DNA of 64,000 nt from Natronoarchaeum philippinense. Its GTDB lineage: Archaea; Halobacteriota; Halobacteria; Halobacteriales; Natronoarchaeaceae. The stretch covers positions 882,588-946,587 of the forward strand of contig NZ_OBEJ01000001.1 of assembly GCF_900215575.1 (NCBI RefSeq), in the 5' to 3' direction. Positions 22,047 through 28,403 of the stretch are shown here, piece after piece. A program made the position numbers and the translations under genes. Every line of letters starts with the position of its first letter. Positions within the stretch are counted from its first letter, which is position 1. The notes under the pieces were generated by a model, which did not search any database, was not told where the DNA came from, and saw only the letters and a program-made list of their open reading frames with translations.

Positions 22047-22062
22047 TTTAGGCCGACCTAAA
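22047..22062. promoter_or_regulatory. DtxR/IdeR-type iron-box operator
   Basis: The perfect dyad TTTAGG-CCGA-CCTAAA lies between a TATA-like GTTTTAAT (22037-22044) and the ATG at 22066, where a bound repressor would block initiation. The half-site matches the TTAGG/CCTAA arms of DtxR/IdeR/SirR-family metal-dependent repressor sites. Regulation by iron or manganese is inferred. Confidence 0.6.
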
Positions 22063-22065
22063 ACC

Positions 22066-23247
22066 ATGAACAATACGACGCGAGACCGCAGAGGGCCATC
22101 CCGGCGAACGTATCTTCAGTCCCTTGGCGCGCTCGCCGCCGGCGCACTCGCAGGTTGTACGAGTAGTACGTCCACACCGGAATCCGACGGGGGCGCCTAC
22201 TCCGTTACACTGGCGCCGATGGGTGAGATAGAGTTCGACGACGTGCCAAACGACGTGTTCACCATCTACCCCCAGTACGTCGACATGGCGGTCGCGCTGG
22301 GTCACGGAGACGCCATCAACTCGATGTTCGCCACGGAGATGGCGGGAACGACGATGAACCACTACTACGAGCACCTCGACGGCGTCTCCTTCGAGTGGGA
22401 CAACCTGACGAATCCGCTCAGCGGAGAGTTTAGCCGGGAGTTGGTGTACGAGCAGGAAAGCGACCTGCATCTCGCCGATCCCGCGTGGGTCGTCACCCAG
22501 AGCAACTGGGACCAGTCGAAGGTCAAGTCGATCGGCGATCAGCTTGGGCCGTGGTTCGGGAACTTCTACAGCGGCACCCACGACGACCCGCCGGAAGCCT
22601 ACCGAGACCAGTACGAGTACTACAGCCTCTGGGAGCTGTTCGGCAAGGTCGCTCAGGTGTTCGACGAAACCGAGCGCTACGAGGCGATCAAGTCAATCTA
22701 CGACGACACCCTCGCAACGATCACCAAGAACCTGCCGCCCGAAAGCGAGCGACCGACCGCGGTTCGGGTCACTTACAGCGCGCAGACGGACCAGTTTTTC
22801 ACCTACCATCTCAACAAGCCCGGCTACTGGCTGGCCGACACGCGTCCGCTCGGTGCGACGGACGCGTTCGCGGACCAAGACTGGGAGCAGCTGTGGGGCA
22901 CCGTCGACTACGAGACGATGCTCGAAGCCGACCCGGACGTGATCTTGCATCTGTGGGGCCTGACCCCGCGAGACGACATGGCAGAAGTGCGAAGCCAACT
23001 CGAAAACGACGCGTCTGGACAGAAACTCACCGCCGTCCAGAACGACCGCGTGTACGCCGCCGGGATGCGCTATCAGGGACCGATCATGAACCTGTTCCAG
23101 CTCGAGATGGGCGCAAAGCAGCTCTACCCCGAACAGTTCGGCGAGTGGCCGGGAACACCCGACGGCGGGAGTGCGTACCCGGAAATTCCCGAAGGCGAAC
23201 GGCTCTTTGACCGGCAAGAGTTGGCCGACGTAATTAACGGAAGCTGA
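22066..23247 (+). CDS. ABC-transporter substrate-binding lipoprotein, iron/siderophore type
   Basis: This 393-residue exported protein begins with a twin-arginine signal (PSRRTYLQSLGALAAGALAGC) ending in a lipobox; the lipid-modified Cys would be about residue 31. The mature part has the two-lobe pattern of cluster-8 binding proteins (FepB/BtuF-like): VFTIYPQYVDMAVALGHGDAI early, then RVTYSAQTDQFF, YETMLEADPDVILHLWG and VQNDRVYAAGM. Its promoter overlaps an iron-box-like dyad. No permease or ATPase gene is adjacent, so it must pair with components encoded elsewhere. Iron-siderophore, haem, cobalamin or nickel ligands remain open. Confidence 0.78.
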   Translation: MNNTTRDRRGPSRRTYLQSLGALAAGALAGCTSSTSTPESDGGAYSVTLAPMGEIEFDDVPNDVFTIYPQYVDMAVALGHGDAINSMFATEMAGTTMNHYYEHLDGVSFEWDNLTNPLSGEFSRELVYEQESDLHLADPAWVVTQSNWDQSKVKSIGDQLGPWFGNFYSGTHDDPPEAYRDQYEYYSLWELFGKVAQVFDETERYEAIKSIYDDTLATITKNLPPESERPTAVRVTYSAQTDQFFTYHLNKPGYWLADTRPLGATDAFADQDWEQLWGTVDYETMLEADPDVILHLWGLTPRDDMAEVRSQLENDASGQKLTAVQNDRVYAAGMRYQGPIMNLFQLEMGAKQLYPEQFGEWPGTPDGGSAYPEIPEGERLFDRQELADVINGS

Positions 23248-23291
23248 CGCGACCTCGCAGAACTAAGGGCGTCCACCACGTCTGCCCGGAC

Positions 23292-23825
23292 ATGAAGATA
23301 TACACCGGCCGCGGCGACGAGGGGATGACCGACCTGCGAGATATGTCTCGCGTGTCGAAAACGAGCGCGCGCATCGAGGCCTACGGGACCGTCGACGAAC
23401 TGAACGCCCTGCTGGGGACCGTCCGGCCGACGGGCCACGACGATGTCGACGACCACCTCGAAACGGTCCAGAACCACCTCCACGTCGTGCAGGCCGACCT
23501 CGCCAATCCCAATCCGGACGACGACGATCCCGTAGTCGAGTCCGGCCACACCAACCAGCTGGAGGCGCTGATCGACTCCTACGACGACGAGTTAGACCCA
23601 CTCGAACAGTTCATCCTGCCGGGCGGAGCTGACAGCGGCGCCAGCCTCCATCACGCGCGGACCGTCTGCCGGCGCGCCGAGCGCCGGGCCGTCGCGCTGG
23701 CGGCCGAGGAGACGATCAACGACGACGCCGTCGAGTATCTCAACCGGCTTTCGGACGCGCTGTTCGTCCTCGCGCGCGTAGTGAACAAACGCGACGGCGT
23801 CCGCGAGGAAAATCCCGAGTACTAG
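23292..23825 (+). CDS. Cob(I)alamin adenosyltransferase, PduO type
   Basis: Transfers the adenosyl group of ATP to cob(I)alamin to make coenzyme B12. It is 177 residues with the family N-terminus MKIYTGRGDEGMTDLRD, the RIEAYGTVDELNALLG helix, and the ATP/cobalamin motif ILPGGADSGASLHHARTVCRRAER with late LNRLSDALFVLARV. Length and motifs match the PduO/MMAB trimeric class rather than CobA. Its stop overlaps the stop of the convergent adenine deaminase by four bases. Confidence 0.9.
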   Translation: MKIYTGRGDEGMTDLRDMSRVSKTSARIEAYGTVDELNALLGTVRPTGHDDVDDHLETVQNHLHVVQADLANPNPDDDDPVVESGHTNQLEALIDSYDDELDPLEQFILPGGADSGASLHHARTVCRRAERRAVALAAEETINDDAVEYLNRLSDALFVLARVVNKRDGVREENPEY

Positions 23826-25552
23826 AGTTCGAGTCCGACCAGTTCCTGTCGGATAACGTCAGCGTACCCGTCGGGAGTGAGTTTCATCGTCGGGACGCCG
23901 ACGAACGGGAGCGACGCCAGCGAGATCAGCGGCCGGTCGACGCCGACGCCGAGCGTGCCGAGCGCGTTCTCGACGGCGTCCAGCAGCTTCGCGGTTTCTT
24001 CGACCTCCAGATCGGCAGCACAGCCGCCGACGCGGTAGGGGAGCTCGGCGATCACGTCGCCGTCGCGGACGACCGCCCAGCCCCCGCCGAGGTCGTCGAC
24101 CCGTTCGGCGGCCGCCCGGAGGTCGGCGTCGTCGGCGCCGACGGCGAGCACGCCGGTCGCTTCCATCGTCATGCTCGTGGCGACGCCGCCGCGTTCGATG
24201 CCGTAGCCCGACAGGAAGCCGGTGAACCCTGTGCCGTCGGCGTCGGGATGGCGGTCGAGCAGGGCGACCTTGGCGACATCGCGCTCGGGCGCCGCGACGA
24301 GCGCGCCGTCCTCAACTGCGGGTTCGACAGTTGTTTCGGCCGACACCAGTCCGTCGCGGAGTTCGATCCCGCGCACACGACCGTCGGCGTCGGCGGCGTC
24401 TGCGGGAACGCGGAACTCCTCGGGGTCGGTCCGTACGTCGACGGCGTCGTAGAAGCGATCGGGGTACTGGTGGCTCCGGGGCGCGACCCGGACTTCGTTG
24501 TTGTGGACGACGACCTCGCCGTCGCTGACGACGGTCGTGACGTTGACAGTTTCGAGGTCGTCGACGATCAGGATGTCCGCGGCGTTGCCGGGCGCGAGGC
24601 TTCCCCGGTCGTCGAGGCCGAAGTGACGCGCCGGATTCAGCGTCGCCATCGGGATCGCGTCGGCCGGCTCGACGCCGGCGTCGATCGTCCGCCGAACGAC
24701 GGCGTCCATCAGCCCCTCGTCGATCAGTTTCCGGGGCCACATCCCGTCGGTCGACAGCGACAGTTCGGCGGCGCCGACGCGGTCGACCGCCCCGGCGATC
24801 GCCTCGATGTCGTCGCGGACCGACCCGTACCGGCCGATCGCGTGGATGCCGCGTTCGACGCGTTCGACGACGCCCTCGGTCGAGATCGCCTCGTGGTCGT
24901 TGTCGACCGCGCCCGCAAAGGCCGAGAGTTTGGCGCCGTCACAGCCCGCGCCGTGGCCGCAGTTGCGCTTGCCCTCGCGGCGCGCGCGCTCGTGGAGGCG
25001 CTCGATGGGCGAGTCGCGCCCGACGACGTGGATCCAGTCGGTCTCGCCGACGCCGACGATCCGGTCGTCGTCGAGCAGGTCGACCAGTTCGTCGGCCTCG
25101 GAATCGCTGGCGCGGGCAGGGCCGAACGTGTCGGCCAACGATTGTGGCGGGACGGTCGCCTTGACCGTGATCGGCAGATAGGCGGTAGCGGCAAGCAGCG
25201 CCTCGACGCCCTCGGCGCCGAAGACGCCGCCCAGTCCCGAGGTTTCGGTGACGAGCGTCGTCGTCCCGCCCTCCAGCGCGTAGTGGTAGGCGTTTTCGAG
25301 CGTCTGGACCGTGTCGACGTGCGTGTGCGCGTCGATGAAGCCGGGGAGGACGGCCCGGCCGTCGGCGTCGATCACGCGGGTGTCCTCGCCGATCACATCG
25401 CTCGCGTCGTCGGGAAGCGCGGCGACCTCGTTGTCACAGACGGCAACGTCGAGCGCACGGAACTCGCCGGTTTCCGGAAGGAAGACGCGCCCGCCGGCGA
25501 CGACCAGATCGGCCGGCGCCTCGCCGAGCGCGACAGCCTGTGCGCGCTTCAT
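23822..25552 (-). CDS. ade: Adenine deaminase
   Basis: Converts adenine to hypoxanthine and ammonia for purine salvage. The 576-residue protein is of the amidohydrolase superfamily with metal-binding HTHVD (GFIDAHTHVDTV), a downstream GHGAGCDGAKLSAF and DHEAIS, and TDGMWPRKLIDEG near the active-site end. The C-terminal adenine-deaminase domain includes SLPFVGVPTMKLTPDGYADV. In standard enzymes the TDD/DD motif follows the last strand; here it reads STDGMW, a variation shared by some haloarchaeal copies as far as I recall. It overlaps the upstream MBL gene by four bases, so the two are co-transcribed. Confidence 0.88.
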   Translation of the reverse strand: MKRAQAVALGEAPADLVVAGGRVFLPETGEFRALDVAVCDNEVAALPDDASDVIGEDTRVIDADGRAVLPGFIDAHTHVDTVQTLENAYHYALEGGTTTLVTETSGLGGVFGAEGVEALLAATAYLPITVKATVPPQSLADTFGPARASDSEADELVDLLDDDRIVGVGETDWIHVVGRDSPIERLHERARREGKRNCGHGAGCDGAKLSAFAGAVDNDHEAISTEGVVERVERGIHAIGRYGSVRDDIEAIAGAVDRVGAAELSLSTDGMWPRKLIDEGLMDAVVRRTIDAGVEPADAIPMATLNPARHFGLDDRGSLAPGNAADILIVDDLETVNVTTVVSDGEVVVHNNEVRVAPRSHQYPDRFYDAVDVRTDPEEFRVPADAADADGRVRGIELRDGLVSAETTVEPAVEDGALVAAPERDVAKVALLDRHPDADGTGFTGFLSGYGIERGGVATSMTMEATGVLAVGADDADLRAAAERVDDLGGGWAVVRDGDVIAELPYRVGGCAADLEVEETAKLLDAVENALGTLGVGVDRPLISLASLPFVGVPTMKLTPDGYADVIRQELVGLEL

Positions 25553-26499
25553 GCTGCCTCGTACCGGACGAGTCCGTCCTCGTCCTCGAAACTGGCGACC
25601 GCGCCGCGCGCTTCGAGCACGTCGAGGTGGCCGATCGCCTCGCTCATCGCCGGGAAATACTCCGTGACGGGCAGGTCGTCGAACAGCCCCTCCATCACCG
25701 CCGTCGCGGTGATCGGCTCCTCGACCAGCGCCCGGACGTTCTCGGTGCGGTCCTCGTGGGCGGCCAGCATCTCGTCGATCCGCCCGAGCGGGTCGTCGAT
25801 CCGGTCGCCGTGGCCCGGCAGGAACTGGTCGAACTCGCGCGTCCGGAGCGTTTCGAGCGAGTCGTTGTACGCCGGGAGCACGCGGGGACGCTCGCCGCCC
25901 TGTTCGGCGGGCGGTTGCAAGAGCGGGTTCGGCGTCACCTCGCCGAGCACGTGGTCGCCGACGATTGCACGCTCTCCGCCGGCGGCCTCGAAGGTAAACA
26001 GCAACTCGCCCGCGGCGTGGCCCTCGACGGCCTCGGCGGTAATGGTATCGTCGGCGACTTCGAGCGTTTCGCCGTCGGCCAGCGTCCGGTCGATCTCGCA
26101 GTCCGGCGCGTAGGGGAGATACGCCTGCGGGAGATCGACGACCGTGCTGGCCGTCGATTCGGACATCCCGTGAGCGGCGAACAGCTCGCTGAAATAGGAC
26201 TGCTCGTACTCCAATCGGTCTTCGAACGCCCCGACGATCTGTGCAGTCGCAGGGGCGGCGAGCACCTCGACGCCGGCCTCACGAAGTCGCTTTGCGGCGC
26301 CGAAGTGGTCGGGATGGGGATGAGTTATCAGTGCGCGATCGAGATCGCCCGGTGCGAGGTCGCGGGCCGCGAGCCCCTCGGTCAGGGCGTCCCACGACTC
26401 GTCGCTGTCGGGACCGGGATCGACGATCGTCCGTCCGGCGAGGTAGGCGTTGACCGGGCCTACTTGGAACGGCGTCGGGATCGAGAGCCGGCTGAACAT
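25549..26499 (-). CDS. MBL-fold hydrolase with C-terminal winged-helix-like domain
   Basis: A 316-residue protein. The beta-lactamase-fold core carries the metal-binding HPHPDHFGA motif (residues ~59-67), AVEGHAAGELLF, IVGDHVLG and LPGHGDRIDDP. After about residue 215 there is a helical region (AIGHLDVLEARGAVASFEDE) like the winged helix found in LACTB2-type MBL proteins. It is upstream of ade with a four-base overlap. A role linked to purine salvage is possible but is inference from operon structure. The start at ATG 26499 has a clean N-terminus. Confidence 0.8.
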   Translation of the reverse strand: MFSRLSIPTPFQVGPVNAYLAGRTIVDPGPDSDESWDALTEGLAARDLAPGDLDRALITHPHPDHFGAAKRLREAGVEVLAAPATAQIVGAFEDRLEYEQSYFSELFAAHGMSESTASTVVDLPQAYLPYAPDCEIDRTLADGETLEVADDTITAEAVEGHAAGELLFTFEAAGGERAIVGDHVLGEVTPNPLLQPPAEQGGERPRVLPAYNDSLETLRTREFDQFLPGHGDRIDDPLGRIDEMLAAHEDRTENVRALVEEPITATAVMEGLFDDLPVTEYFPAMSEAIGHLDVLEARGAVASFEDEDGLVRYEAA

Positions 26500-26713
26500 T
26501 CGTGGTGGGGTTCGACGGCCGAGTAGTAAAACCGTTTGTGAACCGGTGACTCGGCGTCGAGCGTTGTCGGAAAGAGAGAGATGCTACGGGACGTGTCGAG
26601 TCCGATGCCCACGGAACCTCGACCGTCTGTCGGGACCGTCGCCGGTCCAACTGCTGGTACACCACGGGACGGAGGAGCAGGAGTCATCCACCGTAACCTC
26701 CGACGCCGTGATT

Positions 26714-26763
26714 TTAGGTATGCCTAACAATATGTTAAAGCCACCGATTTCGGCTAGCCTAAA
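26714..26763. promoter_or_regulatory. Two tandem iron-box-like operators without an obvious target
   Basis: The gap 26500-26909 (410 bp) holds no convincing gene. It contains TTAGG-TATG-CCTAA (26714-26727) and TTTCGG-CTAG-CCTAAA (26748-26763). Both match the dyad upstream of the lipoprotein gene at 22066 (the second with one mismatch), with centres 35 bp apart and AT-rich sequence between. A 28-codon ORF (26783-26869) follows but resembles nothing known. The flanking genes start 213 bp left and 147 bp right. Confidence 0.5.
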
Positions 26764-26880
26764 AGATCCACCACGCCGGACGATGCGTCAACGAAACGGC
26801 ATCGACACCGTTGTGGCTGGCTCGTCGGGCGTTCTGGTACAAAATGGCCGTGACACGTCACCAGCCTGACGCCGGAAGTG

Positions 26881-26887
26881 CTATATC
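26881..26887 (+). promoter_or_regulatory. TATA box for the 26910 gene
   Basis: CTATATC lies about 26 nt before the ATG at 26910, so that gene has its own promoter, separate from the iron-box pair further upstream. Confidence 0.4.
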
Positions 26888-26909
26888 TGTTGCTTGCGTA
26901 CGAACAGAT

Positions 26910-27167
26910 ATGGTGAACAGGCACTTCCACGATGCGCGGTACTATCTGGGACGCACGGTCGAACACGCGACGCTCGGCGTCGTCGAGACGCTCGATCCCG
27001 TCGTAGCGAAAGGCCGCGAACTCGCCGGGACCGAGGACGAACCCGAACCGACCCGTGTCGATCGGGTTCGCACGTCCCTCCACGACGCCGACGAGCGCGC
27101 GGTCGAGGCGGGTCGTGCCCTCGCGGGCGATGCCCGCCGTCGCGTCCGGCGATACCGCGGGACGTGA
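26910..27167 (+). CDS. Small conserved haloarchaeal protein
   Basis: An 85-residue, highly charged helical protein (MVNRHFHDARYYLGRTVEHA...). The pattern HFxDARYYLxR ... GVVETLDPVVAKGRELAG ... DEPEPTRVDRVR recalls a family of short haloarchaeal proteins predicted to be alpha-helical and of unknown function. I start at ATG 26910, 26 nt after a TATA box, rather than at the TTG at 26811, which adds a non-conserved leader. It lies just upstream of the tRNA-Val gene. Confidence 0.6.
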   Translation: MVNRHFHDARYYLGRTVEHATLGVVETLDPVVAKGRELAGTEDEPEPTRVDRVRTSLHDADERAVEAGRALAGDARRRVRRYRGT

Positions 27168-27220: not shown

Positions 27221-27295
27221 GGGTTGGTGGTCTAGCCTGGTTATGACGGCTCCTTCACACGGAGCAGGTCGGCGGTTCGACTCCGCCCCAACCCA
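27221..27295 (+). tRNA. tRNA-Val (anticodon CAC)
   Basis: A full cloverleaf can be drawn. The acceptor strands are GGGTTGG (27221-27227) and CCAACCC (27288-27294) with discriminator A. The anticodon stem CTCC/GGAG encloses TTCACAC, giving anticodon CAC. The T arm is GGCGG-TTCGACT-CCGCC (27271-27287). No CCA is encoded and no intron is seen. Its 3' 28 nt are duplicated exactly at 29527-29554, so this gene is the integration site of an element. Confidence 0.93.
27268..27295 (+). repeat. attL: left attachment sequence in tRNA-Val
   Basis: These 28 bases, covering the T arm and 3' acceptor strand of tRNA-Val, recur exactly at 29527-29554. The tRNA copy keeps the gene intact after integration. 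Confidence 0.8.
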
Positions 27296-27568
27296 TTTGG
27301 TACCTTCTTCCTGATGAAGTAGCGAATCGCCAGAGGGTAGTGTGACGGCGTCAACAGTTGATCCAATTCACTGGGTGACCATGCTGATTTGTCGATACCC
27401 CGCCACGGGAAGAAGATCTCGTTAGGGAAACCGGTCATCTGAGCCAGTCTTGAATGTAGCTCTCTCCCTCACCCGCTCAATGCATCAAGGCGCATAATTC
27501 ACTCCCGAGAACTAACTAACAAGTAACAATAGAGACATCATAAAGAAGGTGCAGTGTCTCGTTTTGCT

Positions 27569-28339
27569 TTATTGAGGATCTTTTTGATAGTTCTCTGTGG
27601 CTGTATGAACGGTTGAATGATCAATGGGTTCGATCTGCTCCATTCCGTATTTGAATATTTGGATAGCAGCCCGGTAGGTAGAAATGTTGTTTTTTGTAGC
27701 ATAGATAGAGATCACACGATAAGTATTAATGATCAGACGCAACCGATGAAGGTGATGTTGATACACTCCGTATAGGATCTCTGGCAATTTTCTAATCTTC
27801 CGTATGGCAAGTAAAGCACTCAATGAATTAGAAATAATTCTGGAGCCACCATTAGCAGTTACAGCTGCGAAAAACATTATAATGCTGGCTACCCCAATCA
27901 GAATTAGGATTTCTATCAAAATATCAACCCCCTCACTAGCTCCTGCGGAAGTTATATTTTCAAAATATCCAATAGTCGCAAAGAACCCAATGAAGCCACC
28001 TGTAAAGAGGAATCCACCGGATAAGAAGTCTAGAACCGGATGTTGGTCATGAGGATCAATATATGATAGGTATGAAAGCAGTCGAATCTTGTAAATGATT
28101 GCCGAGAAGAGGGCTATTGTGACACTGAGTGGAGGAGATGCAAGAAACAAATCGATAGCGATTGCTATGAGCTCCGTAGGGGGTTCTGCGATATAGACAA
28201 TTCCGGTCAATACGAGGAGAATTGTTGAAATAGAATACGCAAATATGGAAAAGCTGGCAACTGCCGCTTGTTTTGAATAATGGAAGATATTGCCAGTGTG
28301 TTTGCGGAAGAAGCGAATTGTTTTGGCGGCTAAGAACAT
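27569..28339 (-). CDS. AT-rich polytopic membrane protein of the integrative element
   Basis: This 256-residue protein has about four membrane segments (residues ~25-50, 58-85, 105-125 and 139-162) followed by a soluble, basic C-terminal third (LLAIRKIRKLPEILYGVYQH...). Its Ile/Lys/Asn content and AT-rich codons contrast with the surrounding chromosome and mark it as acquired. I recognise no family. It sits between attL and the integrase, is read in the same direction as the integrase, and is the element's only evident cargo. A membrane effector or immunity role is possible but unsupported by motifs. Confidence 0.6.
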   Translation of the reverse strand: MFLAAKTIRFFRKHTGNIFHYSKQAAVASFSIFAYSISTILLVLTGIVYIAEPPTELIAIAIDLFLASPPLSVTIALFSAIIYKIRLLSYLSYIDPHDQHPVLDFLSGGFLFTGGFIGFFATIGYFENITSAGASEGVDILIEILILIGVASIIMFFAAVTANGGSRIISNSLSALLAIRKIRKLPEILYGVYQHHLHRLRLIINTYRVISIYATKNNISTYRAAIQIFKYGMEQIEPIDHSTVHTATENYQKDPQ

Positions 28340-28403
28340 GATCGGTTTAAATCCCTCATGTCAGAAAGATCTAACGACAGGCCTGTAAAAGAAGCCAATT
28401 CAC

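Follow-up and report, generated by a model that had tools for sequence, protein, structure and literature searches.

Small RNAs that spare iron are textbook regulators in bacteria, with RyhB, PrrF, FsrA and IsrR as examples, and the cyanobacterial iron-stress RNA IsaR1 is said to act on the mRNA of plant-type ferredoxin. The candidate RNA described here shares with the first four a putative iron-box control in front, a predicted small non-coding nature and complementarity to the 5' part of the reading frame of an iron-protein mRNA, start codon included. It differs from them in being archaeal, in having no Rfam match, in carrying DtxR-type rather than Fur boxes, in having a single target found so far, and in presenting its antisense stretch in the loop of a predicted hairpin that would cover the start codon. 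With IsaR1 it would have iron stress and a ferredoxin mRNA in common, whereas domain of life and regulator differ; the sequence relation of these two was compared via Rfam only.

Few sRNA-target pairs are known from archaea, according to the accessible part of one report (PMC8155600). That part links the haloarchaeal intergenic RNA s479 of Haloferax volcanii to metal homeostasis; s479 concerns zinc transport, belongs to a CRISPR-linked locus and pairs inside a coding region, and neither an iron box nor ferredoxin is mentioned there (PMC8155600). We found no report of an archaeal iron-sparing sRNA in the accessible open-access literature, and reports elsewhere are possible. In the haloarchaeal DtxR/SirR/Idr regulon, the accessible parts of the published accounts name protein genes (PMC11349517, PMC11218638). 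The TTAGG-CCTAA boxes of the present genome likewise precede PF01497 binding proteins and metal transporters, but the regulated unit at this locus is a predicted non-coding RNA.

Iron-box dyads and predicted promoter layout

The window, by which we mean the whole 64-kb stretch of DNA that was analysed, contains a 410-bp gap (26500-26909) bordered by the gene for an MBL-fold hydrolase (25549-26499, minus strand) and a DUF7553 gene (26910-27167, plus strand). An initial annotation had noted two iron-box dyads in this gap, an AT-rich stretch between them and a 28-codon ORF from the ATG at 26783, all of which we found as described. The dyads read TTAGGTATGCCTAA at 26714-26727 (10/10 specified positions) and TTCGGCTAGCCTAA at 26749-26762 (9/10). 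The predicted promoter elements are as follows.

26714-26727, minus strand: perfect dyad TTAGGCATACCTAA, putative main operator over the predicted transcription start, score 10/10
26749-26762, minus strand: imperfect upstream dyad, TTAGGCTAGCCGAA as read on this strand, putative second operator, score 9/10
26731-26741, minus strand: TATA-like stretch CTTTAACATAT between the dyads, recognized by eye

Only three sites in the window score 9 or more (22048, 26714 and 26749), and the pair in the gap stands far above the chance expectation, which a first-order Markov simulation puts at 0.07 sites per window for score 9 and 0.03 for score 10 (~0.1 together). Genome-wide, TTNGGNNNNCCTAA has 34 matches, both strands counted, vs. 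5 for its reversed control. Genes for four PF01497 periplasmic binding proteins (that at 22048 among them) lie behind such sites, as do those for an extracellular solute-binding protein, a ZIP transporter and an ABC ATPase. Of the 11 genes scanned that lie behind or at TTAGG-N4-CCTAA sites, at least 7 are of transport type. Two glycosyltransferase-like genes, a gluconate dehydrogenase subunit and a ThiI-like protein at such sites are not obviously metal genes. Given the binding-protein and transporter genes behind them, the sites likely form an iron-type regulon, which supports the iron reading of the initial annotation. An inverted repeat of this form before metal genes has the sequence of a DtxR/Idr operator, and we take the motif to be the haloarchaeal DtxR/Idr box.

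Three further observations were made in this genome. At 22048-23822, a single perfect dyad stands directly before a PF01497 gene, and a gene for cobalamin adenosyltransferase (PF01923) comes next, as in an ordinary regulon member. Elsewhere the genome has a further dyad pair with a spacing of 26 bp (L142, G000:C1:362562-362601), ~110-140 bp before a ThiI-like gene (PF02568). Within the window, tRNA-Val(CAC) occupies 27221-27295, and just past it an AT-rich segment (27300-28340) carries a 256-aa ORF (27569-28339, minus strand); the relative G001 has other sequence in its place, and the segment looks like an island adjoining the tRNA gene.

The arrangement of the two dyads recurs at two other sites of the genome, both at PF01497 binding-protein genes: an imperfect dyad comes first, then, at a spacing of 34 or 36 bp and preceded by a TATA, the perfect dyad, whose start lies 19-20 nt ahead of an ATG. 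The TATA-dyad-start geometry of the 26714 dyad also matches that of the gene at 22048 and of two other binding-protein genes. Since the order of the dyads in the gap fits this layout only on the minus strand, transcription would run on that strand, away from the 28-codon ORF.

Comparison of the gap among relatives shows that the pair has been kept, at 35 bp in six of nine family genomes (G000-G005) and at 36 bp in a seventh, G006, where TTTTATAAA stands at the place of the TATA-like stretch (by eye). The imperfect dyad thus keeps its distance upstream in 7/9 family genomes, and does so in 13/13 Haloarcula loci read; the pair is absent from the remaining family genomes, G007 and G008. The term "orphan", which the initial annotation had applied to the pair, is therefore wrong: it is the putative promoter of a conserved predicted RNA that recurs in 7/9 family genomes.

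The predicted small RNA and its distribution

Conserved sequence lies to the left of the dyads and not to the right. The block is missing in G007, G008 and, among the gaps listed, in four of Haloarcula (g21), and the dyads are missing there too. A small regulatory RNA had been one of the suggestions made for this gap, and the sequence strongly supports it, but not on the strand that was implied: the predicted RNA runs on the minus strand from ~26711 to ~26570 and not into 26783. Its elements are:

26570-26711, minus strand: predicted small RNA gene of ~140 nt, a conserved non-coding block behind the operators, with approximate ends set by promoter geometry and the T-run
26662-26711, minus strand: predicted 5' hairpin I, from the minimum-energy fold, which for the window's own sequence is not better than shuffles
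26590-26627, minus strand: predicted hairpin II presenting the conserved loop, from the minimum-energy fold, with a same-loop hairpin in relatives
26604-26614, minus strand: loop CCGTGGGCATC, exactly complementary to GATGCCCACGG at the ferredoxin start
26570-26580, minus strand: pyrimidine/T-run CTCTCTCTTTC, a possible terminator before the MBL promoter, with TTTT runs likewise placed in several relatives

The predicted RNAs of relatives have a 5' hairpin and then a second one that carries C(C/G)GUGGGCA close to its tip, followed in part by a T-run; their stems vary in sequence while the loop is constant, and the hairpins are of very unequal length. We found no conserved ORF on the minus strand, the spacing of the two RNA motifs occurring in all three frames. 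A small protein on this strand was accordingly rejected, as the spacing varies modulo 3 and frames are not kept among G002, G003, G004 and G005 (by eye).

Folding statistics are weak. Mean z-scores against shuffles were -1.31 for hairpin I, -0.53 for hairpin II and -0.72 for the whole RNA, and the window's own RNA did not differ significantly (~+1.1, -0.1 and -0.65, respectively). An arm-swap test gave a modest result, with 3/24 RNAs worse than most swaps, and helix covariation over five sequences yielded two pairs changed on both sides, which was equalled in 36/500 shuffles. The sole outcome of RNAalifold on 14 relatives was an invariant, pseudoknot-like pairing between UGUCCCA and UGGGCA, with no covariation. 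Rfam 15 covariance models, RyhB included, matched nothing between 26400 and 27000 at E-values up to 1; in the loci L350, L083 and L296 they found only a tRNA, the last of these being a ferredoxin gene locus and not an RNA locus.

The 5' hairpin is often followed by GUCUGUCCC(A), and GTCTGTCCC is invariant in 14/14 aligned sequences. Near-invariant between the hairpins in many relatives (L083:2889-2898 and 13 relatives), GUCUGUCCC(A) is altered in the window's genus; it is able to pair with the loop as a pseudoknot, or perhaps serves as a second antisense site. The conserved GUCUGUCCCA, also altered in the window's genus, is left unexplained by the ferredoxin pairing set out below.

The loop, CCGUGGGCAUC in the window, is found again behind iron boxes of related families. 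Of 57 haloarchaeal MBL loci with a name, those with an upstream perfect dyad number 18, and TGGGCA lies 3' of the dyad in 18/18 of these, vs. 1/39 of the loci without a perfect dyad. An iron box and loop at suitable spacing occur in 60/392 genomes of the order, a count that includes other paired-dyad elements (judged by eye), vs. 3 matches for the reversed control. RNAs of the same kind are present in families f1, f4, f5, f6 and f7, in genera that include Halostella, Halorientalis, Halorubellus, Haloarchaeobius and Haloarcula; genus g73 was recognized as Halosimplex because its RNA is identical in sequence to that of the named loci L095 and L100.

Forty-six RNA-bearing genomes with both parts read enter the comparison with ferredoxin below. 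Left out of the 46 are seven genomes whose match is not this RNA (G037, G122, G135, G180, G209, G211 and G171), three ambiguous ones (G131, G161 and G265) and the second match in G005, G029 and G148; the ferredoxin of six further RNA-bearing genomes (G313, G238, G310, G283, G378 and G201, of which G201 looks real) was unread. One other paired-dyad element of several haloarchaea, seen at L402 (G211), L404 (G171), L412 (G209) and G279:C1:862605-862739, is followed by a conserved block of another kind (GCGCCGCACCG ... ACATCGGTGGGCC-like) and may mark where a further iron-regulated gene or RNA begins.

Ferredoxin complementarity and alternative readings

The predicted target of the loop 11-mer lies outside the window, at G000:C6:20636-20646, where the complementary stretch comprises the start codon together with codons 2-3 in the mRNA for a 129-aa protein (GAUGCCCACGG), the haloarchaeal [2Fe-2S] ferredoxin (PF00111; PDB 1e0z, 1doi). 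No other recurring gene start matched the 11-mer among 30 places read. In the family, it stands at the start of this protein in 7/7 genomes with the RNA vs. 0/2 without (p 0.03), the ferredoxin of G007 and G008 starting with ATGCCCACTG.

Complementarity in sequence to the start of this iron-protein mRNA holds in every case: the ferredoxin start matches the genome's own loop in 46/46, and a compensatory change accompanies it. Codons 2-3 plus the next base read CCCACGG in 42 of these genomes and CCCACCG in 4; Halosimplex and the neighbouring g93 have ACC as the Thr codon, with a C-to-G change in the loop that fits it. Own pairs had a duplex energy of -22.4 kcal/mol and swapped pairs had -17.3 and -16.1 kcal/mol, in a set that includes a wrong segment for G029. 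The exact antisense is mostly 10-17 nt long, reaching 17 nt and into the 5' leader in G272 and 14 nt (by eye) in G029; in G003 it is only 8 nt because the loop would form a G-U pair.

Relatives without the RNA mostly lack the ferredoxin match. Within genus g29, CCCACGG is found in 4/4 genomes with the RNA vs. 0/6 without (p 0.005). Among the 149 genomes listed, out of 340 matching, a tally by hand gave a match in 29/29 with the RNA vs. 16/120 without a found RNA, a contrast inflated by shared descent, which also affects the other counts. Those 16, which have CCCACG, comprise ten Haloarcula and six others in five genera; a loop search in three of the six (G264, G306 and G341) found no RNA, while three Haloarcula searched likewise gave one.

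Haloarcula was at first an apparent exception, with CCCACGG in 24 of 26 genomes that lacked an accepted pattern match. In the three genomes searched, the loop sits on a strong stem ~186 nt behind a perfect dyad. A second pattern matched in 14/26, and the dyads are 35 bp apart in 13/13 such loci read, a count that leaves out L416 (G176); it had no match in the two Haloarcula with CCAACC, nor in ten with CCCACG.

GC-rich haloarchaea use the codons CCC and ACG frequently. The match could therefore be incidental to an iron-regulated sRNA whose targets lie elsewhere (e.g., via GUCUGUCCCA) or which binds protein, and both the CCCACG in 16/120 listed genomes without a found RNA and the ability of the loop and GUCUGUCCCA to pair together are in keeping with this. 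We nevertheless consider it unlikely, as the match falls at the same place in 46/46 genomes, is up to 17 nt long and reaches into the 5' leader, has a compensatory change and follows the RNA within g29 and within the family.

At loci adjoining MBL the RNA is oriented toward that gene, as it would be if the dyads were a second, iron-controlled promoter of the hydrolase and the conserved block its long 5' leader. In Haloarcula, though, the RNA and its paired dyads lie between a halocyanin/DUF5059 gene and an HhH-GPD gene, so they are not an MBL leader, and in G083 and G090 a long distance separates the RNA from the DUF7553 locus. The TATA-like promoter of MBL itself is kept both in relatives that have the RNA and in those that lack it (by eye), and several relatives have T-runs upstream of it; a leader is very improbable.

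Hardly credible is a plus-strand promoter for the 28-codon ORF, as the microprotein of the initial annotation, or an extra one for DUF7553: the inter-dyad stretch is AT-rich on both strands and could be bidirectional, but the reading frame is not conserved in relatives, the order of imperfect and perfect dyad suits the minus strand, dyad 2 of G002 is only ~70 bp from DUF7553, and that gene, as had been noted, has its own TATA, even in relatives without dyads. The ORF at 26783 was rejected as a gene, being absent in relatives and opposed by promoter geometry, and the proposed lost gene fell away as well, with no iron-uptake gene in any relative's gap read.

Proposed mechanism and significance

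The sites, their layout and conservation, the loop, its exact complementarity, one paired compensatory change and the lack of the match in most relatives without the RNA are read directly from the DNA; from them we infer transcription, the identity of the repressor and the sign and size of the effect. Our main reading, to which we give a probability of about 0.8, is a minus-strand sRNA repressed in the presence of iron by a DtxR/Idr-type regulator at a double operator, with a loop that blocks ferredoxin translation in low iron. When iron is replete, the metal-bound regulator would occupy the two operators on either side of the TATA and prevent synthesis of the RNA. When iron is low it would leave them, and the RNA would be made from ~26711 leftwards to ~26570. 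Hairpin II would then expose its loop for pairing with the AUG and codons 2-3 of the ferredoxin mRNA, which would stop ribosome initiation and spare iron. Because the exposed loop matches the start of the ferredoxin mRNA, the RNA probably saves iron when iron is scarce, and the best reading is that it acts like an archaeal counterpart of RyhB.

In Haloferax volcanii, the ferredoxin HVO_2995 is ~2-fold lower in iron starvation, according to the accessible part of the report (PMC11349517). This drop, in another species, fits blocking of ferredoxin by the RNA and is no proof of it; it spans numerous iron proteins and might be due to something else. The RNA might partly account for the lower ferredoxin of iron-starved haloarchaea.

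The predicted promoter, loop, target and compensatory change are recognizable in the sequences of many species, Haloarcula among them, which makes the mechanism directly testable. For haloarchaea of several families, it is probable that this RNA is an iron-sparing switch whose loop co-evolves with ferredoxin, that RyhB-like logic arose independently in Archaea, and that synonymous codons 2-3 of ferredoxin are constrained, the match between RNA and target being a selective force on them.
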